DNA of 27,104 bases, taken from a virus. The position numbers and the translations under genes were made by a program. This document shows positions 1,317 through 14,561 of the stretch, one piece after another. Where the stretch lies: the IMG/VR virus record IMGVR_UViG_3300046816_000386, positions 1 to 27,104 of that record; one strand, 5' to 3'. Position 1 is the first letter of the stretch; each line of letters opens with the position of its first letter. Below the pieces are notes generated by a model. That model searched no databases and had not been told where the DNA came from. It saw only the letters and a list, made by a program, of their open reading frames with translations.

Positions 1317-1962
1317 GCCAGTAGATCGAACGCAACAGGCGCTCATTCGGCTTGGTGTGGATTTGCAGCTTCTTCGCTCTGCGCCGGAAATAACCCCTCT
1401 CCTCAAGAACGCCGAAGGTGGCCTTAAGGCCGTCCTCGGCGCGATGCGCTTCGTTGCCGATGATCCCTCAATCCAAGCGTTTCTAGAAAAGTACGACGAG
1501 ATTCCTTCCGGCGACCGGGAGAAGCTTTCGTGGGAAGCTATCGCTCTGGCGGCAGGATTAGACCTTCGCATCTTCCTCGGTTCCGCGATGCTGGCGCTGC
1601 AATCGCAGGCGGTCAACATGGTGAAGATTATCGCCATGACGAGCCATCCCCGGATCACGAAGGCCAGAGTGAAGTACGGCCTCTTGCCCAGCGGCGAGAA
1701 GGATAGGACTGCTCTGGATACCGCGATGGGCTTCCTGCCATCCCCCAAGGGACCAACCTTCATTGGGAAAGCTGTCTTTGGTTCCGGAAAGCAAACGATG
1801 AAAGATCAAGGGGCGGGGCGGGATGATGACGACGATGATGACGATGGAGTGATCGACGCAGGCGACAGTGAAGCGGATTCCAACTTCCTGTTTCCAGATT
1901 CTAGAGACATCCAAGAAAAGATCAATCCTATTCGACAGAAGCTCTTGGGGGGCAATAAGTAA
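1069..1962 (+). CDS. Candidate terminase small subunit
   Basis: About 297 residues from GTG 1069 (ATG at 1078 is an alternative; neither has a strong ribosome-binding site). Residues 1-82 are low-complexity and rich in Lys, Arg, Pro and Ser. A helical core follows (roughly residues 83-235), then a run of eight Asp near residue 250 and a short acidic tail. The core ends in a segment, GFLPSPKGPTF, that I associate with small-terminase-like proteins of environmental phages. The stop overlaps the terminase large subunit start by 1 nt (TAATG), the usual place for a small subunit, which would recognise phage DNA and regulate packaging. Assignment rests on position and general resemblance, not on a clear DNA-binding motif. 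The N-terminal part may not be translated in this frame. Confidence 0.45.
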   Translation: MTSMKPPEVLSPNSGPMFESHAKQSYPEFLPQKKKRERKPETLPDPSENGSESSNPRKRSGRVRKSSSQDRLRNLPVPKPLRKPVDRTQQALIRLGVDLQLLRSAPEITPLLKNAEGGLKAVLGAMRFVADDPSIQAFLEKYDEIPSGDREKLSWEAIALAAGLDLRIFLGSAMLALQSQAVNMVKIIAMTSHPRITKARVKYGLLPSGEKDRTALDTAMGFLPSPKGPTFIGKAVFGSGKQTMKDQGAGRDDDDDDDDGVIDAGDSEADSNFLFPDSRDIQEKINPIRQKLLGGNK

Positions 1963-4115
1963 TGTACTCCCAAAAGATCATCAATCACTCCCTTGAACTA
2001 TTTGAAGCAGAGAACAAATGGCTTCCCAAGTACCACTCCTACGACGAAGTTCTGGAGTTCACAAAGTATATTGACTCGCTCGTAGAGATCGAATCGAACT
2101 CGAAGACGAGCGAAATCAGGGTCACGAAAAGGCTAAGCGCCAGCAGGCAACAGGAGATCAGGAGGTGGGTACAGAACGAGCAAGCATTGTGCTCTTTGGA
2201 TAGCGGGTATTGGGATCGTAATTATGCTTGGGTCGCCGACGAAAAAGGCCAGATTTTCAAGTTCAAGAACCGTAAGTCGCAAGAGGTTTTCGACTCAGTG
2301 ATTGCGGGGTTCGACGAAGATCAGGTGTCGATTGAGATTCTATGCCTTAAGGGCCGTCAGGTGGGCATCACGACGAAAGTCGCGCTCAAATTCATTCACC
2401 GTATGCTTTTCATCCCGCATACGCAAGCGGTTATGGCGTCGGTCCAGCGCGACAAGTCAGACCTTATCGAACGCATCCTCAACACAGCGTACAATCGCTG
2501 TCCGTGGTGGCTGGTGCCGCTCAGGATGCCGAAGAAGTCGTTCGACAATGGATCGATCCTTTCGATCCAGTCAGGTATGCAGGCGACAGGTATTGCTCAG
2601 GGATGGACCCCGCAGTTGATCCACATCTCCGAGGTCAGCCTCATCCCTAATCCGAAGGAAACGATTGAAGAAGGTCTACTCCCGGCCACGCACAGTTCTA
2701 AGAACCTCTTCATGGTGTTCGAGGGAACGGGATCAGGAAACGTAGGATGGTTTCCGGACTACTGGAGAGACTCGAAGAAGAACTGGCCGCTTGGTCTATC
2801 ACGTATGTGTCCGGTATTCATCTCGTGGCCTCTGGCTACCGATCTTTACCCACAGGAAGACTGGCTGCGGAAGTTCCCCATCCCCGGAAGCTTTTTGCAC
2901 GACCAATTGGATGCAACCAAGAAGCACGTGGCCCGTTGCGAATCGTACATCCGAAATACTCCATATCTGTCAAGAGTAGTTGGCAAGGATTATCGGATGC
3001 CCATCGAGCAGCAGTGGTTCTGGGAGTTCGAATACCGTCAGGCCAAGGAAAAGCACACACTCCAGAAGTTCGCAGCGCGTATGCCTGCGGACGACTTTGA
3101 GGCGTTGACTGGCGTCCACGACAGCGTGTTCGATATGGAAGTTCTGGCGGAGCTTGAAGACAACATCTATGAGGTGCGGGTGGTCGGGGGAGAGGCAGTC
3201 AAAGAACGGCGTACTCCCGTGGAGTCCTATGCCATCATCGGGCATGACGTGGATGAGATATTTCATCCTGATCCAGACTTGATTGACCACACGAAGGAAA
3301 AAATAAAGGTGGAGTGGCGGTCGTTCCGTGGAAACGAGTACGAGTGGTGGATGCTTCCGCTGAAGTATCAGGACGAGACTTTCGAAGGCAACACGATGGA
3401 TCGCTTGCTTATTTACGATCCGCCGCAGCGGGGATTGTATTATGCCTGCGGCGTCGATACCGCTGACGGTCTAGGCAAAGAGGATGAAGATCGTTCGGTT
3501 CTGTCTGTCACCAATAATCGTTTCAACGGGGAGTCTGATTACCAATGCGCCGAGTACACAACGAACAGGGTCAATTCTGCGCAGATCGTTCCCTTCGCCG
3601 CTTGTCTAGGTGCGTATTACGGAAAGATGTGTCCTGACGGTCGCGGGATGAAGTACGTCATCGAACAGGTGAGAGGGCCGGGAGATACATGCCAGCACCA
3701 GTTGAAGATGATGGGATTTAATAACCATCACAAGCCACGCCGCTACGATTCGAAGAAGATCAAGGACACCCCCGGAACGAAGGAAGGGTGGTATTCGAAC
3801 GGGTGGTCTGTGCCGATGTTGATGGACCGATTCCGCGAAGCCGTAAATGGTGGTTGGTACATTCCGCGCTCAAAGTGGTTGATCGAAGAGCTTCGAACAC
3901 TGGAGCGCCATGAGACGGCGGGTAAGTCAAAAATGGAGCATCGCAGCGGACAACATGATGATAGAGTGAGGGGGGCCGCGCAGTCTTACTTTACAGCACA
4001 CGACATGGATATCCTTACGGAACGTGCTCAGAAGCGGAGTGCTCCACCGAGGAAGATAGAGCGTCCCAAGGGTCCGGGAACAGCAAACCAGATGGCAGTA
4101 GGAGACGGTTGGTAG
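1962..4115 (+). CDS. terL: Terminase large subunit (packaging ATPase and nuclease)
   Basis: This 717-residue protein is the motor that pumps DNA into the procapsid and cuts concatemers. In the N-terminal ATPase, residues 129-139 (LKGRQVGITTK) form a variant Walker A of the K-x-R-Q-x-G-[IFM]-[ST]-T type, and 218-225 (QLIHISEV) a Walker B-like strand with Glu224 as likely catalytic carboxylate. FEGTGSG (253-259) fits the coupling motif. The C-terminal RNase H-like nuclease shows its acidic residues in order: Asp499 (GVDTADG), Glu568 (YVIEQV) and the HDD triplet 665-667. A segment of about 90 residues (400-490) lies between the domains. It overlaps the preceding gene by 1 nt. The protein is longer than many terminases but complete. 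The assignment is firm; the packaging type (headful or cos) cannot be told. Confidence 0.93.
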   Translation: MYSQKIINHSLELFEAENKWLPKYHSYDEVLEFTKYIDSLVEIESNSKTSEIRVTKRLSASRQQEIRRWVQNEQALCSLDSGYWDRNYAWVADEKGQIFKFKNRKSQEVFDSVIAGFDEDQVSIEILCLKGRQVGITTKVALKFIHRMLFIPHTQAVMASVQRDKSDLIERILNTAYNRCPWWLVPLRMPKKSFDNGSILSIQSGMQATGIAQGWTPQLIHISEVSLIPNPKETIEEGLLPATHSSKNLFMVFEGTGSGNVGWFPDYWRDSKKNWPLGLSRMCPVFISWPLATDLYPQEDWLRKFPIPGSFLHDQLDATKKHVARCESYIRNTPYLSRVVGKDYRMPIEQQWFWEFEYRQAKEKHTLQKFAARMPADDFEALTGVHDSVFDMEVLAELEDNIYEVRVVGGEAVKERRTPVESYAIIGHDVDEIFHPDPDLIDHTKEKIKVEWRSFRGNEYEWWMLPLKYQDETFEGNTMDRLLIYDPPQRGLYYACGVDTADGLGKEDEDRSVLSVTNNRFNGESDYQCAEYTTNRVNSAQIVPFAACLGAYYGKMCPDGRGMKYVIEQVRGPGDTCQHQLKMMGFNNHHKPRRYDSKKIKDTPGTKEGWYSNGWSVPMLMDRFREAVNGGWYIPRSKWLIEELRTLERHETAGKSKMEHRSGQHDDRVRGAAQSYFTAHDMDILTERAQKRSAPPRKIERPKGPGTANQMAVGDGW

Positions 4116-4927: not shown

Positions 4928-5063
4928 TCGCGATGCGGTTCTATTGGGAATGTTCTTCGGGGCTACGCTCGAAGGCTTGACAATATGTTTCTTCTATTTG
5001 TTCGGCGGAGAGTTTCAACAGGAAAAATCAACCGGGAGAAAAGAAAATGATTACGATTCATAA
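4920..5063 (+). CDS. Very small membrane protein (47 aa)
   Basis: The start chosen is ATG 4920, because CAGGAG lies about 8 nt upstream and the in-frame ATG at 4818 would bury the gene inside the preceding one. The product has one hydrophobic segment (residues 6-30, AVLLGMFFGATLEGLTICFF onward) and a charged, hydrophilic tail. It overlaps the gene before by 8 nt and the gene after by 17 nt, which fits translational coupling. Family not recognised. Small phage membrane proteins in such positions can be holin-like or superinfection-exclusion proteins, but nothing here supports one over another. Confidence 0.55.
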   Translation: MSSRDAVLLGMFFGATLEGLTICFFYLFGGEFQQEKSTGRKENDYDS

Positions 5064-6225: not shown

Positions 6226-8313
6226 TTGCCAGTAATGGGAGAGTCAACCTCGTATTTCCGGGATAAAAACGAGACTTCCAGTTGGCAATTCAGCCCATTC
6301 TGGTCGCACCCCGAACAGATTTACGCGGACGTGGAGAATCAGATTCAAGAAGGCGAAGGCTTTCTCTCGTCGCAAAAGTGCTACAAGGACCTCTCTAAAA
6401 ATCTCCGTATTTTCAACGCAGTCTTCAACGACAATTGCCGTTCGACTCTCGTAACCAACACCCTGAAGTACGATATTCGAAAGTTCTGCGAGACGCTGGC
6501 GCAAGTTCGCGAGATCGCCGGGTACGGGTCGGATAACCCGTCGTACAAGAAGATGGCGGAGATGCTGACGAAGGTCTCCAAATGCGTCTACCTAGAATCT
6601 GATTTTCCCTTTCAAATCCTGAAGGTCCTGCAATATGCCGCCGTCATGGGGATCGGCTATCTATGGCCGAAGGTTAGGGCGACCGAGTACGGCTATGGCG
6701 AGCGGAGGATGGAGTTTGATGCGCTGGGCCTCTTGGATGTAATTCCCAGCCAGATTCCTTCCCGCACCAATGACATTCAGGATGCCTACGCGGTCACGAT
6801 CTACGACTATATGCCTATCGCGGAGGCGCATGGTCGCTTTCCCCTCTTCCAGAATGACATTCAAACAGTGGGGTTCCGCCGCAACTACCAGACGCGGATG
6901 CAGGCGCAGCGCGTCGATGTCGCGGAGAGAAACCGCTATGGCGATGTAGGCCGTTCGTTTGGCAACTTGTACGCCGAAATCCGCTACACGTTTGTTCGTG
7001 ATTTGAGAATCAACAACACCGGCTACGAGCTTCCCATGGGGGATATGGGGACGACGTGGTTCTATCGAGTACCTCACGTTGGCCAAAGAATTTTCGGCGG
7101 CATGAGGAATGGGGAACCATTCTATATTCCTGCCGAGCCGGAGCACTGCCGGGTCTATCCAAATCTTCGCCTTATTATCACCTCCACAGGTATGGCGAAG
7201 CCAATGTACGACGGTCCCGCCTTCGATTGGGACCCTCGTATGCCAATCATCCAGTACACCGTGGATGACTGGGCATGGGAGCCGCTGGGACGCTCCATCG
7301 TAGGGGATGTTGCCAGCATCGAGCAGACGATTCGGAAGCATGAGCGTTTGATGGATCAGGGCTTGGCTGCCGCGATGAATCCGCCGATGGGCTACAACCA
7401 TACGGAAACAGGTGGCCCCAAGGTTGAGCACTTTGACATATTCGAGCCGGACGTTCGCCTTGGCGTGGATGGAAAGCCGAGTGACGTTTTCCACTCGATC
7501 CTTCCGGACATTTCTCCAGACGAAAAGAACTTCAAGTTCGTAGAGACGCTTCGTGCCGTGCAGGGCAAGCAGCTAGGTCTCGAAGACCTTGGCAACCTTG
7601 GAGCCAACATGAAGCTCCAGATTGCTTCGGACACTGCGGACAAGATGCTGGAGTCGATTGGGCCTGTCGGCAAGGGAATAGCGCAGCGCGTCGAGAAGGC
7701 AAATAAGTCCGTTGGGCAAAGGGTAAAGTACCTTATCTTACAGTGGTTTGATACCCAAAGAATTATGGAATATGTTGGTCCGGAGAGCATGGCTGCGGAA
7801 ACGTTTGACTACAAGCCAAACGATCTAGTTCCCAGCCATTTGCCGGACGAATTAATCAGTGGACAGTTCCCGGATACAGAATCGAAGTACACCTCTTTGG
7901 AGCGAGCGCGGTGGTTTGTTAAACAAATCAGGCTGGTGTCTGTACCCAGCACGTTGCTGAAGGTAACTCAGATGCAGCAACAGTTGCTCATGCTCCAATT
8001 GAAAAAGGGACAAGCTCCTATTTCATGGTTAACCGTCTTCAAAGCGATGGATATTCCTAATCCGGAGAAGGAGATTGATGACTCCTTCAAAGAGCAGGAG
8101 AAGCTGGAAAAGATGAAGATGATGGCGCAGATTGACCTCATGCAGACCCTGAAGAAGCTGGGGATCGATCCGCAACAGGTAATGGGTGGGGGCGGCGGTC
8201 AAGATGGGAAGCCACACGCAGGCGGCAGGCCATCTTCCGGGCAGAAAGCGCCAAAATTGCGGCAAAAAGGCGCTAAAGGTGGAGACCCAAGATCGACGGT
8301 GACAGAAAGTTAA
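6226..8313 (+). CDS. Portal protein
   Basis: About 695 residues. Portals form the dodecameric ring at the head vertex through which DNA enters and exits. The length, the helix-rich N-terminus with repeated aromatic/charged helices, a central beta-rich region (about 240-380) and the Lys/Glu-rich helical C-terminus followed by a Gly-rich tail (GRPSSGQKAPKLRQKG near residues 667-682) match podovirus-type portals as I know them. Position after terminase and before scaffold and capsid supports the call. Start is uncertain: TTG 6226 has GAGA 8 nt upstream, ATG 6235 has no site; a TGA at 6214 excludes anything longer. No protease domain or cleavage motif is seen. Confidence 0.85.
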   Translation: MPVMGESTSYFRDKNETSSWQFSPFWSHPEQIYADVENQIQEGEGFLSSQKCYKDLSKNLRIFNAVFNDNCRSTLVTNTLKYDIRKFCETLAQVREIAGYGSDNPSYKKMAEMLTKVSKCVYLESDFPFQILKVLQYAAVMGIGYLWPKVRATEYGYGERRMEFDALGLLDVIPSQIPSRTNDIQDAYAVTIYDYMPIAEAHGRFPLFQNDIQTVGFRRNYQTRMQAQRVDVAERNRYGDVGRSFGNLYAEIRYTFVRDLRINNTGYELPMGDMGTTWFYRVPHVGQRIFGGMRNGEPFYIPAEPEHCRVYPNLRLIITSTGMAKPMYDGPAFDWDPRMPIIQYTVDDWAWEPLGRSIVGDVASIEQTIRKHERLMDQGLAAAMNPPMGYNHTETGGPKVEHFDIFEPDVRLGVDGKPSDVFHSILPDISPDEKNFKFVETLRAVQGKQLGLEDLGNLGANMKLQIASDTADKMLESIGPVGKGIAQRVEKANKSVGQRVKYLILQWFDTQRIMEYVGPESMAAETFDYKPNDLVPSHLPDELISGQFPDTESKYTSLERARWFVKQIRLVSVPSTLLKVTQMQQQLLMLQLKKGQAPISWLTVFKAMDIPNPEKEIDDSFKEQEKLEKMKMMAQIDLMQTLKKLGIDPQQVMGGGGGQDGKPHAGGRPSSGQKAPKLRQKGAKGGDPRSTVTES

Positions 8314-9243: not shown

Positions 9244-10212
9244 ATGGCAACCGTAGCCGAAATTCTGAAAGCCTCTGGGCTTACCGACGAACAAATCGCC
9301 GCACTGGATGCGAAGGCTCTTACTGCGTTCAATGGCGTGTTGACGACCGCCGCAGAAGACGCCAAAAAGGCGGAAGCGGAAAGAGTGAAGGCAAAGGAAA
9401 TGCAGGACGCTGCCGAGTTAGCACAGCGTGCCAACAAAGAATTTTACGACCAGACCATCATGCCGTCGCTGACGGGATGGGAAGACAAAGAGAAGGCCCT
9501 GCAAATCGAGATTGCCAACGCCAAGGCGCTTGCAGCGTTCTACGAAGCACAGAATAAGGCGGCGAAGGAAGGCGGATTTATCGCTTCTGACGCGCCAGTG
9601 TATACCCCGGCTGCTGGTGCGGTTCGCGGCCCCGATGGAAAGTTTGTGGCGGGTGCTCAGGGCGCAACGCCGGGAAGTCCTACTTTCAAGATGGAAGACG
9701 TTGAGAATCGTCTCGGTCAAGGTTTGGACAACTCAGTTTGGGCTTTGCAAGAGTTTCAGCGTTTGTCTGGTGGCCAGTTTCTCCCTGATTCGATCAGTTC
9801 TCTCGCGCAGGAAGCGAATGCGCAGAAGCTTCCTTTCCGCGATTATGTTTCTCGGAAGTATGACTTCCCTGCGAAGCAAGCAGCGTTACAGGCCAAGGTT
9901 GAGGCGGAGAAGGCTGACGCCATCGCGAAGGCCGCTGTTGCTCCTTACGAAGAGAAGTTGAAGGCCAAGGACGCCGAGTGGCAACAGAAGCTTGAAGAGC
10001 AGGCCAAGGCCATCTCTGAGCGCGGCGGCAACAATCCCGATGTTCGCCGTGCGGCTATCAGCAACTACCCAGAGGTTAAGAAGGCTGTTGCCGAAGGAAC
10101 TCGCAAGGACCCGTTGAGCATGACGCGGGAAGAGCGGCAAGTTGAAATGCGTAAGCAAATTCAGGCTGACGTTGCAGTAAACGAAGAATCGAAAGCTGGA
10201 GCAGCAGCATAA
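9244..10212 (+). CDS. Scaffold-like protein
   Basis: 322 residues, GGGAG upstream. Strongly helical and rich in Ala, Lys, Glu and Gln, with coiled-coil-like stretches at about 25-115 and 215-265. A Gly/Ala/Pro-rich linker (about 118-148) separates two helical parts. The protein lies directly upstream of the major capsid gene, the normal place of a scaffolding protein, which fills the procapsid during assembly and then leaves. The call rests on position and composition; scaffolds diverge too fast for motif evidence. No protease motif is visible, so a protease-scaffold fusion is unlikely. Confidence 0.65.
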   Translation: MATVAEILKASGLTDEQIAALDAKALTAFNGVLTTAAEDAKKAEAERVKAKEMQDAAELAQRANKEFYDQTIMPSLTGWEDKEKALQIEIANAKALAAFYEAQNKAAKEGGFIASDAPVYTPAAGAVRGPDGKFVAGAQGATPGSPTFKMEDVENRLGQGLDNSVWALQEFQRLSGGQFLPDSISSLAQEANAQKLPFRDYVSRKYDFPAKQAALQAKVEAEKADAIAKAAVAPYEEKLKAKDAEWQQKLEEQAKAISERGGNNPDVRRAAISNYPEVKKAVAEGTRKDPLSMTREERQVEMRKQIQADVAVNEESKAGAAA

Positions 10213-10253: not shown

Positions 10254-11504
10254 ATGCCAACCGTGACTCTTCCACAGGACCCGCAATTCAATGAGATCGA
10301 CGCCAATAACTTGGAGTCGGTTCGCCGTGATGTCGTGTGGAACCAGCTTTTCGTAGACACACCGTTCCAAGCGAAACTGCGCAGGGCGGGAGTCTGGGAA
10401 GATTTCCTCGGCGGCGCTGGCATGACGGAAGTCATTCAGTATGGTCGCGCTCAGGGCGCGGCTGTGAATCCCGGTCAAACGGTTACACTGACCCGGCAGC
10501 AGATCGACACGAAAGTTAAGTTCTATCCCAAGCTGTACGTCTCATGGTTTCCGATGGACGAGTGGGAGATGGACGACGGTTCCGGCACGGGTGGTGTCAT
10601 CAACTCCGGTCCTGCCAAGATCGCGGACATCTATGGCCTGTACATGGAGAACATGGTGATGAACATCAACACCATGCTCGAAATGGACTCCTTCCGCCAC
10701 GGGCAGTCGAACGCTTCAACTATCAGCGATAACCGTATCAAGTGCTCGAATGGTCTGGACGAAGCCTTGAACAATGGCATCGACTCCTCGCTCTTCGGCA
10801 ACCGCTACCCTACGTATGGCGGTCAGACGAGAAACGGCAACGTCGGCATCACATGGAACTCAACTCCCCAGTACCTCGGAACAGCTTCGGGTGGTACCGG
10901 CCAAATCGACGTGGCTTCCATGCAGAAGCTCTGGACACAGGTCACCACCTGCGGCGGCAAGCCTTCACTGGGCATCACGAACGGCTTCGGCTTTGCGGCC
11001 ATCGCCATCGCTCTCGATGCACAGCGCCGGGACATTCAGTTGAAGAAGCACGATCTTGAGTGGGTAGCTTTTAGCTACAACGGCGTGGAAATTTACTCTG
11101 ACCCGCTCGCTCCTTCGGCAACGGCCCAGTATTACATCCCGCTCGGCCAAGCAGCAGGCGGAGCCGCTGGCAACACGAGCTTGGTGGACGGTGTTGGATC
11201 GAGCACGGCGACCATCGCATTCACGACGCCACAGTTCACGAGTTCGGGTGCGCCAGTCAACTTCTCGCCAACCAACTCTGGCCTGCCGTCGAACACCACA
11301 ATTCAGCCTTCAGAAGCGTTGTACTTCCTTGAGCCGGAGAGCTTCAAGGTTCGTCCGACGAACAAGTCTGGCTTCAAGTTCGGCGTGCGCCGCGTTCCGC
11401 AGCAGAACAACGTTTCGGTGGACGGAATCATGATGCGGTTGGGAATCAACCTCTACAACTGTCAGCCGCGCCACAACGCTTACTGTTTCGGTTTCAGCAG
11501 CTAA
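10254..11504 (+). CDS. Major capsid protein (HK97-fold type)
   Basis: 416 residues; AGGAGAT at 10240-10246. The protein forms the head shell. Supporting features are position after scaffold and before decoration genes, length close to that of podovirus coat proteins, an N-terminal arm with a basic segment (residues 24-50, RRDVVWNQLF), a long central helix region (about 120-150), Gly/Thr-rich loops, and a C-terminal stretch of alternating beta strands around FKFGVRRVPQQNNVSVDGIM. Residues 9-23 (DPQFNEIDANNLESV) reappear in modified form at the start of a small basic protein encoded at 12889. No cleavable prosegment is evident. Exact fold subfamily not determined. Confidence 0.85.
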   Translation: MPTVTLPQDPQFNEIDANNLESVRRDVVWNQLFVDTPFQAKLRRAGVWEDFLGGAGMTEVIQYGRAQGAAVNPGQTVTLTRQQIDTKVKFYPKLYVSWFPMDEWEMDDGSGTGGVINSGPAKIADIYGLYMENMVMNINTMLEMDSFRHGQSNASTISDNRIKCSNGLDEALNNGIDSSLFGNRYPTYGGQTRNGNVGITWNSTPQYLGTASGGTGQIDVASMQKLWTQVTTCGGKPSLGITNGFGFAAIAIALDAQRRDIQLKKHDLEWVAFSYNGVEIYSDPLAPSATAQYYIPLGQAAGGAAGNTSLVDGVGSSTATIAFTTPQFTSSGAPVNFSPTNSGLPSNTTIQPSEALYFLEPESFKVRPTNKSGFKFGVRRVPQQNNVSVDGIMMRLGINLYNCQPRHNAYCFGFSS

Positions 11505-11545: not shown

Positions 11546-12406
11546 ATGCCACTTACTCCATCAACTCCGACTTGGCTGGCGTGGAACAACGCTAACTTCA
11601 CGTCGCCCACTGGCCTTTCGGATGCGTATAACGGTCAGCCGATTGGTGCGGGTGGCTTGAACCTTGGTGCTTACTTTGACGCGACGAATCAGGAAGCCGC
11701 CAATGCGTCGTATGCAACCAATGGTGTTCTGTATGCGGGTCGATACCGTTTGGTGCAGGTTGACTCCGGCGCTACGGCGGCGAACGTCAAGACGGGCACC
11801 GTTGGATTCCTGCGGGCTGGTGGCGGCACGGGCGCGGTCAAGACGGTCAGCGTTACCAACGTTGGCACGGGCGCGACCGTGGGCACGTACACCATTGCGG
11901 CAGCCAACCCCAGCGGCGGCGGCACGGGTGCAGTGATCCAAGTTGTAGTTGGCGCTTCGGGTACGATCACTTCGGCCACTGTGCTCAATGGCGGATTCAA
12001 CTACAACTCGGTTCCGACCTTCTCGCTGACGGCGACGGGTACCACAGGCGGAGCAGTTGTCGCACAGTTGGATACGTCTCCGAACGTCGTTACCAGCGCA
12101 GATCAGGGTACGGTTACTGGCGTTCCCAACGTCCGTCCAGTCGTCTTCCTGAACGCGATCACTCCCGGCAACTTTGGGTTCGTTCAGGAGCTTGGAACAG
12201 CGACAGTTCTCGATGCAGCTTCGACGGTGCAAGCAGCGGGTCAGTTTGCCAACGTCACGGCTACCACGGGAATCATGGCAGCGTCTGGAACGACATGCCT
12301 CATCACCACGATTGGCCAAGTCATCGACGCAGTGGCAAGCTCTACCATCGCGAATCTTCCGTTCAAGATTCAACTTGGATACGCCTGCTCGGTTGTACAA
12401 GACTAA
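11546..12406 (+). CDS. Head decoration-like protein with inserted Gly-rich beta module
   Basis: 286 residues, AAGGAG upstream. The outer parts (about 1-90 and 177-286) resemble capsid decoration/stabilisation proteins: a strand-rich N-terminus (YRLVQVDSGATAANVKTGTV) and a later VVFLNAITPGNFGFVQELG segment, both typical in my experience of lambda gpD-like proteins carried downstream of capsid genes. Residues about 91-176 are a separate Gly/Thr-rich beta module that seems inserted into a loop and recurs elsewhere in this genome. It probably binds the outer head surface, the module facing out. Function by position and resemblance only. Confidence 0.6.
   Translation: MPLTPSTPTWLAWNNANFTSPTGLSDAYNGQPIGAGGLNLGAYFDATNQEAANASYATNGVLYAGRYRLVQVDSGATAANVKTGTVGFLRAGGGTGAVKTVSVTNVGTGATVGTYTIAAANPSGGGTGAVIQVVVGASGTITSATVLNGGFNYNSVPTFSLTATGTTGGAVVAQLDTSPNVVTSADQGTVTGVPNVRPVVFLNAITPGNFGFVQELGTATVLDAASTVQAAGQFANVTATTGIMAASGTTCLITTIGQVIDAVASSTIANLPFKIQLGYACSVVQD
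11816..12073 (+). repeat. Gly-rich beta module, copy 1 (in decoration-like protein)
   Basis: It encodes residues 91-176 of the decoration-like protein. Hallmarks in order are GGGTGA, a GTYT strand, a second GGGTGA, VGASGTITSATV, and GGFNYNSVPTFSL. These match the module at 13674-13925 and a related one in the lyase-like protein. This module type recurs in many phage structural proteins. Confidence 0.65.
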
Positions 12407-12794: not shown

Positions 12795-12836
12795 TGCCCT
12801 AGTAAAGTCTGCATTCTCCCGGATGCGCGACAACTG

Positions 12837-12873
12837 AAACGCCCGTTGCGGGGAAACTCGTGACGGGCGTTTT
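12837..12873 (+). terminator. Rho-independent terminator ending head operon
   Basis: A perfect 10-bp stem, AAACGCCCGT (12837-12846) against ACGGGCGTTT (12863-12872), with a 16-nt loop and a short T-run (12870-12873). It lies 42 nt after the stop of the last head gene. The T-run is short, and the next ribosome-binding site (AAGGAG) begins only a few bases later, so read-through into the neck genes is likely. Confidence 0.8.
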
Positions 12874-12888
12874 AGCTAAGGAGTAAGG

Positions 12889-13113
12889 ATGGACCCGCAA
12901 TATAACTCGGTAGACACAAACAGTCTGGAGTCGGTCGGGAAGAGGAAAACGATGGCGAAGAAGATCATGAGATCGAGCGTTACGTATCCACAGAAACGTG
13001 TCTTGGGTACCGAGAAGAAGGTCAAGGCTGATCCCACCACGTCGCCGAAGCGAGTCACGAAGAAGAGTGGCGCGAAGAAGTACACGAAGGTGAAGTCCCT
13101 AACGAGGAAATAA
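12889..13113 (+). CDS. Small basic protein with capsid-like N-terminal peptide
   Basis: 74 residues, TAAGGAG just upstream of ATG 12889. Residues 2-16 (DPQYNSVDTNSLESV) match residues 9-23 of the major capsid protein at 10 of 15 positions; the remainder is Lys/Arg-rich (MAKKIMRSSV... to KSLTRK) and probably disordered, with about 20 Lys. A second ATG at 12952, preceded by GAAGAGG, could start the basic part alone. No family recognised. The basic part suggests contact with DNA or acidic surfaces; the shared peptide suggests a common binding partner or a partial duplication of the capsid gene start. Confidence 0.65.
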   Translation: MDPQYNSVDTNSLESVGKRKTMAKKIMRSSVTYPQKRVLGTEKKVKADPTTSPKRVTKKSGAKKYTKVKSLTRK

Positions 13114-13337: not shown

Positions 13338-14561
13338 ATGTCATTTAACAGCATGACTCAAGAGTTGTTGGGGATACCGGGTACCAACCTCGGCCTCGTT
13401 AAGACAAAAATTAACGAGGCGTTCACGCTGATCCAAGACGAGAACGTTTGGAGTTTCCAACTACAAACGGGAGGTTGGTTGACGCCCGGATTACTGGGAG
13501 GGAAGACCAATACATTCCTGAGTCCGGGAACGATTTCGATTCAGCCCTTCACAAACCAAATGACGGGTGATGCTGTAGCGACCGCTGCATGGTATGGGGC
13601 TATCAATCCCTTCATCACTGTTTACCAAATTCGTGTCCCGTACTACGACCTCTACAACATCATCGCCATCAACGGCAACGGCACGATAGCCTATGCGACG
13701 ATTTTCACTCCCGGCTCAGGACAGACACCCGGAACGTACACCTACCCCATCCTTGATAACGTAGGCCCCGGAACGGGAGGAAGTGTTTCGATCACAGTCG
13801 CTGCGGATGGGACTGTCAGCGCAGCGCCCATCACGCTAAGCGCGGGCAGTGGCTACATCAGCCCATACATCAATTTTGCGCAGGGGGGAACTCCCGCAAC
13901 CTTTACAGTGACCCAAATTGCCGTGCTGACACTGGACAGGTTGTGGACGAGTCCTGCGCAAATCAATTCTGGCTACATGGCCTACCAAGCGTACTTCCCC
14001 GCTCCGGCTGGTTTCCGGCGCTTCTATGCGATCAGGGATTTGGTAAACAACCAGCCGATGAACTGGGATAAATACACTCAGGTTGATCTTGGAATGATTG
14101 ACCCTCAGAGGACAGACTTTTCGCAGCCTGAGTATGTGGTCTATATAGGACCGGACGCTCGTCAAGGAAGCGCGACGTATGGCCAATTTTTGTACGAACT
14201 CTGGCAAGGACCGATCACGCAATTACCTTATGCGTGTCAGTGGCAAGTGATGTGGCCTGCGCTCGCAGGGCCAAATGATACGGTTCCTGCTCCGCTCACG
14301 GAAGAGCTTCTGAAGTTTCGAGCGTATGAAGTTTTGGCAGCGTGGAAAGAATCGCAAAAGGGCGACGACATGGAGCGCGGGTCTGGCTCTAACTGGCAGT
14401 TTCTCGTGATGTATTACCACCAACAGTATTTGGATTGTCTGAAGAAGCTTCGGATTGTGGATCGCAATGTCACAGACTTGTACTTCCAGAAAATGAACCG
14501 CAACCCTATCAATTCGGAGCCATTTGCCAGCGTGACAGGCCAAATGAGTGTCGGCAGCTAA
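13338..14561 (+). CDS. Neck/connector-like protein with inserted beta module
   Basis: 407 residues. The N-terminal helices (INEAFTLIQDENVWSFQ, residues 25-41) and the C-terminal helical part (320-390, LLKFRAYEVLAAWKES and YYHQQYLDCLKKL) flank a beta domain with YNIIAINGNG, LTLDRLWTSP and YMAYQAYFPAP. This order matches phage neck/head-tail adaptor-type proteins as I know them, and the gene sits where neck genes sit. Residues about 113-196 are a Gly-rich module that appears spliced between ...INGNG and LTLDRLW. It would join portal to tail. Adaptor versus tail-tubular role cannot be separated from sequence alone. Confidence 0.55.
   Translation: MSFNSMTQELLGIPGTNLGLVKTKINEAFTLIQDENVWSFQLQTGGWLTPGLLGGKTNTFLSPGTISIQPFTNQMTGDAVATAAWYGAINPFITVYQIRVPYYDLYNIIAINGNGTIAYATIFTPGSGQTPGTYTYPILDNVGPGTGGSVSITVAADGTVSAAPITLSAGSGYISPYINFAQGGTPATFTVTQIAVLTLDRLWTSPAQINSGYMAYQAYFPAPAGFRRFYAIRDLVNNQPMNWDKYTQVDLGMIDPQRTDFSQPEYVVYIGPDARQGSATYGQFLYELWQGPITQLPYACQWQVMWPALAGPNDTVPAPLTEELLKFRAYEVLAAWKESQKGDDMERGSGSNWQFLVMYYHQQYLDCLKKLRIVDRNVTDLYFQKMNRNPINSEPFASVTGQMSVGS
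13674..13925 (+). repeat. Gly-rich beta module, copy 2 (in neck-like protein)
   Basis: It encodes residues about 113-196 of the neck-like protein. It aligns with copy 1: PGTYTYPILDNVGPGTGG, VAADGTVSAAPITL and SGYISPYINF correspond to VGTYTIAAANPSGGGTGA, VGASGTITSATVL and FNYNSVPTFSL. The host fold reads continuously if it is removed. Confidence 0.65.

Follow-up and report, generated by a model that had tools for sequence, protein, structure and literature searches.

What is a piece of the major capsid protein (MCP) doing at the front of a small basic protein encoded behind the head genes of a virus? The question arises in a 27.1-kb IMG/VR virus record, a partial genome that was analyzed over its whole length of 27,104 nucleotides (hereafter the window). 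The gene order is scaffold, MCP, a 286-aa protein, a 110-aa protein, the small gene, a second small gene of the S2 family and a tail-side protein (Table 1), and the small gene (12889-13113, plus strand) encodes MDPQYNSVDTNSLESVGKRKTMAKKIMRSSVTYPQKRVLGTEKKVKADPTTSPKRVTKKSGAKKYTKVKSLTRK. An initial annotation had noticed that residues 2-16 of this protein resemble MCP residues 9-23, and both of its counts were reproduced exactly: 10 of 15 amino acids are identical, as are 31 of the 45 nucleotides at 12892-12936 and 10278-10322 (11, 12 and 8 of 15 at codon positions 1, 2 and 3, respectively). A repeat finder applied to the head-gene region independently returned this pair as the longest direct repeat (10277-10321 and 12891-12935, 71%). 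Aligned without gaps to the MCP, the small protein scored 60 (BLOSUM62); 3000 shuffles of the small protein gave a mean of 26 and a maximum of 51, and the best non-MCP score among 2530 ORF N-termini of related loci was 39, ruling out a chance match. Neither the small protein of the window nor its relatives gave a significant Pfam or PHROG profile match, and a tblastn search of cultured phages with the small protein found no relative.

Table 1 Features of the window, with the evidence for each assignment.
Feature	Position	Strand	Evidence
Large terminase	1962-4115		
Portal, weak P22-portal similarity	6226-8313		
Probable scaffolding protein, with a conserved C-terminal region as candidate docking partner	9244..10212	+	Position, composition, C-terminal alignment
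Major capsid protein (MCP), HK97 fold	10254..11504	+	PHROG 9953 (major head protein); AF2 model; Foldseek
Source segment, MCP N-arm residues 9-23, DPQFNEIDANNLESV, near-invariant in 59 MCPs	10278..10322	+	Alignment; visible in Tunturi_1 MCP
Two-hairpin RNA-like element directly before the small gene	12800..12880	+	
Small basic protein, 74 aa, pI 10.6: N-terminal tag and type I Lys/Arg-rich tail	12889..13113	+	ORF, charge and pI, six tagged phages
Tag, 15 codons, DPQYNSVDTNSLESV, copy of the MCP N-arm segment	12892..12936	+	10/15 aa, 31/45 nt; six-phage purifying selection
Linker GKRKT (GKGKK/GKGRK in relatives)	12937..12951	+	Codon table, L002/L021 alignment
In-frame ATG behind the tag; ACG in L037	12952..12954	+	Codon table
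Basic tail type I (SSVTYPQKR...), common to the window, L037 and L044; other sequences in L002/L021 and L003	12955..13110	+	
S2-family protein with DDGDxxHF/W motif, the second small basic one; no tag here, tagged homologue in L003	13115..13327	+	tblastn, ORF lists
Tail-side protein	13338-14561		

Within the MCP, the matching segment is among the most conserved parts. In 59 MCPs (27-94% identity), P10 is invariant and D9, L20, E21, V23 and R24 are conserved in at least 90%, and the segment is still recognizable as NPLFSEIEAGTLEA in the Tunturi_1 MCP despite an overall identity of about 24%; a closer MCP (66%) is found in an Acidobacteriaceae MAG. An AF2 model of the MCP built from 59 sequences (pLDDT 74, pTM 0.75) retrieved HK97-fold capsids with Foldseek, including those of SU10, cyanophages, T7 and others (E down to 1.4e-10, probability 1.00). 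In this model, residues 10-13 form a short helix and residues 17-31 a longer one, a placement that is approximate (pLDDT about 37-61 for residues 1-30), and the shared peptide would roughly cover the outer N-arm. The near-invariant Arg that MCPs have right after the segment is replaced by Gly in five of the six tags known (Arg in L003), the remainder of the N-arm helix is absent from the tags, and Glu14 of most MCPs is replaced by Ser, Thr or Ala. As a separate observation, six loci (L040, L112, L116, L033, L025 and L142) have an MCP frame whose start, preceded by an SD-like site, lies 22 codons before the DPxxNEI segment; the frame opens with a hydrophobic leader, e.g., MIIKLLVLFIQRLFSLSFCFIT. 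The L028 and L029 MCPs have a different leader of 31 residues.

We scanned all translated frames of the related loci, comprising about 90 IMG/VR loci from MCP searches plus more from a further query, for the peptide. In almost all loci it occurs once, in the MCP. A second copy was found only in the window, L002, L003, L021, L037 and L044 (the last counted as tagged, its stretch not covering the MCP start), the other double matches being duplicate copies of the same contigs. Every second copy opens a small basic protein whose gene lies between those for the 110-aa and tail-side proteins, and each of the six phages has one tagged small protein within the stretch covered. These six are all the members of one clade that cover the region (6/6; MCPs about 93-94% identical where covered); the contigs of the close relatives L001, L004, L005 and L023 end before the small-gene region. 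Since the peptide is old and general in MCPs and limited to one clade in the small gene, its distribution indicates copying from the MCP gene into the small gene. At this site many of the more distant relatives lack a small basic gene, and others have unrelated ones, indicating that the cargo of the small gene is accessory. The expectation that related phages would keep the peptide in the small protein thus held for all close relatives; the small basic proteins of more distant relatives lack it, but most of these are unrelated in sequence.

Continuing gene conversion between tag and MCP was rejected as a general cause of their likeness, the small copies being mutually closer than to their own MCP in most genomes. 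An own-genome excess of tag/MCP identity was absent in the window, L002, L003 and L037, and only L021 lies close to its own MCP (36/45 nucleotides), where local gene conversion is possible. The MCPs of L001 (segment at 4964-5008) and L021 (6025-6069) have Ser at the Glu14 position, like the small-gene tags, and no other MCP segments come closer to the tags at the DNA level (up to 37/45), so that conversion in the direction from tag to MCP is conceivable in these two.

Is the tag maintained as DNA or as a peptide? Among the six copies (15 pairs), pS is 0.40-0.93, near saturation, and pN 0.03-0.14, and variation affects 4 first, 2 second and 12 third codon positions. When the same nucleotide changes were placed randomly in the tag, the number of altered residues rose about two- to fourfold (P 0.00015-0.012 for each tag against the window). 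Because synonymous sites are near saturation while the amino acids are held, these comparisons indicate that the tag peptide is translated and selected as a protein; likewise, since randomly placed changes would alter more residues, the frame from 12889 is translated, and its amino acids matter. Tail I behaves similarly (pS 0.65-0.89, pN 0.02-0.12).

The initial annotation had raised translation from the ATG at 12952 as the case against a tagged product. A start solely at this codon was rejected, since the codons upstream of it are under protein-level purifying selection in the six phages and L037 lacks the ATG; nothing was found showing translation from there only. The linker DNA at 12937..12951 is Shine-Dalgarno-like (GGGAAAGGA in relatives) and is followed by the in-frame ATG, which is kept in five of the six tagged phages with the SD-like GGAAAGGA before it. 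This ATG is possibly an ancestral or secondary start: the tagged frame may have arisen via fusion ahead of a pre-existing start, and a shorter product may be made as well.

Behind the one tag stand three different tails: type I (window, L037 and L044), type II (L002 and L021) and S2 (L003). A conserved N-terminal peptide is thus carried by otherwise unrelated accessory proteins, as with the capsid targeting sequence (CTS) of phage T4. Tags are acidic, with a charge of -2 to -3; tails are strongly basic, at +12 to +19. The L003 tag leads into an S2 protein with a DDGDxxHW motif, which other clade members have as a separate, untagged gene; untagged S2 relatives also occur in more distant phages. 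When homologues of tails I and II lacking the tag were sought, every copy found was tagged. The comparison of L002 with L021 was the most informative about exchange. The two tags have 9 differences in 45 bases, and the sequences just upstream are mostly 40-80% identical, whereas identity is 93-100% from the last tag codons through tail II and most of S2. The switch from diverged to near-identical sequence falls at the tag end and linker, and pS is 0.08 in tail II versus 0.64 in the tag. This near-identity starting at the tag end indicates that a cargo cassette was exchanged behind resident tags.

These results bear on the two explanations originally offered, a duplicated start of the capsid gene fused to a basic protein, or a docking peptide that both proteins need. 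Each found support, and they proved compatible rather than exclusive: the peptide is near-invariant in the MCP family and confined to one clade in the small gene, in line with duplication and fusion, and the preserved amino acids, saturated synonymous sites and swapping of cargo after copying form the pattern of a functional tag.

The tag is probably an address label that brings accessory proteins into the virus head. We regard as rather probable that the N-arm segment was copied in the clade ancestor and retained at the N-terminus of accessory basic proteins as a tag that targets them to the head, docking at the partner of the N-arm. In this history, a duplicate of the DNA for MCP residues 9-23 would have landed at the 5' end of a small accessory gene lying past the head genes, and been kept as the tag. 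The subsequent steps, namely the binding partner, packaging, DNA binding and ejection, are what we infer. During prohead assembly the tag would bind the partner of the N-arm. The likeliest candidate is the C-terminal region of the scaffold, with which the tagged protein would be carried into the prohead and the virion; failing that, the tag would bind neighbouring shell subunits. A small, strongly basic protein, probably DNA-binding, would thereby reach the prohead interior, where the charge of the tail would suit DNA contact or condensation. The tail would be interchangeable cargo, with different phages setting different basic proteins behind one tag. The chances are about even for the wider picture, in which a piece of the phage's own shell protein marks the cargo, the scaffold or the shell brings this cargo into the prohead, and the clade swaps cargo behind the resident tag.

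The alignment of the C-terminal region of the probable scaffold shows an invariant Asp-Pro and Arg, together with other basic residues. A database search with the scaffold gave no match, and a profile search of its C-terminus against the PDB gave no credible match and no sequence relation to P22 gp8 or a solved coat-binding domain. This missing sequence link to the P22 scaffold, the low-confidence N-arm model and the loss of the following Arg from most tags are counterpoints to scaffold docking. The clade is also small, the tag being carried by six phages only. No protease gene was recognized among the proteins scanned in this partial genome.

Three other roles for the small protein have to be weighed. 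It might regulate assembly as a decoy, competing with the MCP for the scaffold (or with the scaffold for the MCP) and so tuning or ending shell growth, with no need for packaging. The peptide nearly copies an MCP segment that probably forms an assembly contact, and since the gene follows the head genes and a terminator-like hairpin, its product would stay less abundant than the MCP. The peptide alone would suffice for such a role, however, yet the tails are themselves under selection, strongly basic and swapped as units, and the gene is absent from most related phages; we consider a decoy unlikely. About as unlikely is a minor capsid (cement) protein of the inner surface, with the tag on the N-arm sites of the shell and the basic tail on packaged DNA, linking the two. 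The N-arm of mature P22 extends into a neighbouring subunit, pairing there by beta-augmentation (PMC9965877), and the basic tails would suit this arrangement. Unrelated tails behind a single tag, and a gene missing from most relatives, are a poor fit for a structural component. MCP-derived DNA could also have been kept for translation initiation or as a homology seam for recombination, the peptide having no binding role. The L002/L021 near-identity does start at the tag end, and an SD-like stretch and ATG lie behind the tag; but selection acts on the amino acids and not on the DNA (12 of 15 third positions vary, with synonymous differences near saturation), MCP codons 1-8, the true initiation region, were not copied, and L037 has no inner ATG, leaving this reading quite improbable. 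Convergence or chance likeness between two unrelated N-termini is scarcely credible: the match is short, at 15 residues, but its score exceeds those of all the shuffles and of the best unrelated N-terminus, the peptide is retained in six phages and is the top DNA repeat of the head region, and the conservation data already contradict it.

The head-targeting tag can be compared with several known systems. The internal proteins of T4 are a diverse set whose only common element is the capsid targeting sequence (PMC3012670). As with the CTS of IPI, IPII, IPIII and Alt, the peptide here is short, N-terminal and carried by otherwise diverse small, accessory, often basic proteins; unlike T4, with several tagged proteins per phage, each of the six phages has one in the stretch covered, the tag is MCP-derived, and packaging is a proposal from sequence. 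In T4, the prohead protease cleaves the CTS, which is not known to be a copy of the MCP N-arm. Docking of the P22 type involves a helix-loop-helix at the scaffold C-terminus, with basic residues that contact the coat N-arm. In P22, R293 and K296 of the scaffold C-terminus bind D14, E15 and E18 of the coat N-arm (PMC9965877). The acidic N-terminal segment of the MCP is similarly a candidate docking site for the scaffold C-terminal region, although no sequence homology was found between the scaffolds. To our knowledge, no other protein borrows the coat N-arm in P22. Encapsulin cargo-loading peptides are short terminal peptides that send varied cargo into an HK97-fold shell; they are usually C-terminal, bind the shell interior, are not known to copy a shell segment and work without a phage assembly pathway. 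The proposed cargo entry here would share with them the short terminal peptide, the varied cargo and the HK97-fold shell, and differ in that the tag is N-terminal and copied from a segment of the shell protein.

The nearest cultured relatives by MCP (about 24% identity) are Tunturi_1 and Tunturi_2, podoviruses of Tunturiibacter, an Acidobacteriota host. They have the same N-arm motif and a similar head gene order, but lack both a small basic gene and a further copy of the peptide; the searched passages of the Tunturi paper report no virion proteomics. We know of no targeting peptide copied from an MCP N-arm, and a limited literature search for one found none. Targeting peptides of phage internal proteins are thus known from T4, and what appears to be new is a tag derived from the MCP. 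For phages without a T4-type core, little is known about the way in which small accessory proteins are selected for packaging. If the proposal is true, copying an assembly contact of the shell protein is a simple evolutionary route to a cargo address; it predicts an N-arm docking place in a capsid family of soil phages related to Acidobacteriota phages, points to more cargo genes, and offers a 15-residue tag for trying protein loading into such heads. The interest of the tag rests on how directly testable the proposal is.

The region contains further recurring features. The two-hairpin element directly before the small gene consists of a first hairpin with an invariant CUCCCGG box, followed by a long GC-rich terminator-like hairpin and a U run. 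It is kept in all six tagged phages and also precedes small basic genes in the distant L007, L008, L009, L015, L016, L018, L020 and L034; the element predates the tag fusion. It folds far better than shuffled sequences in most members (z about -3 to -6; -1.9 in L015) and matched no Rfam family above the Rfam thresholds. L003 and L037 have an extra 183-aa gene (MTKKISQFGNEFQLKAKAAEYAVASKLSLL...) between the MCP and the 286-aa gene, and N-terminally similar-looking genes occupy its place in L051, L056, L061 and L084. The 286-aa protein next to the MCP contains a Gly/Thr-rich repeat (11819-11936), with a similar stretch in the tail-side protein, and these stretches are the source of weak PHROG matches to head closure and baseplate wedge profiles. 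Finally, small basic genes of L007, L008, L009, L016, L018, L020, L086 and L087 share the peptide (K/R)KRVAGK. Several unrelated small basic proteins of one phage have it at the C-terminus, sometimes repeated internally, and it is possibly a common C-terminal signal.
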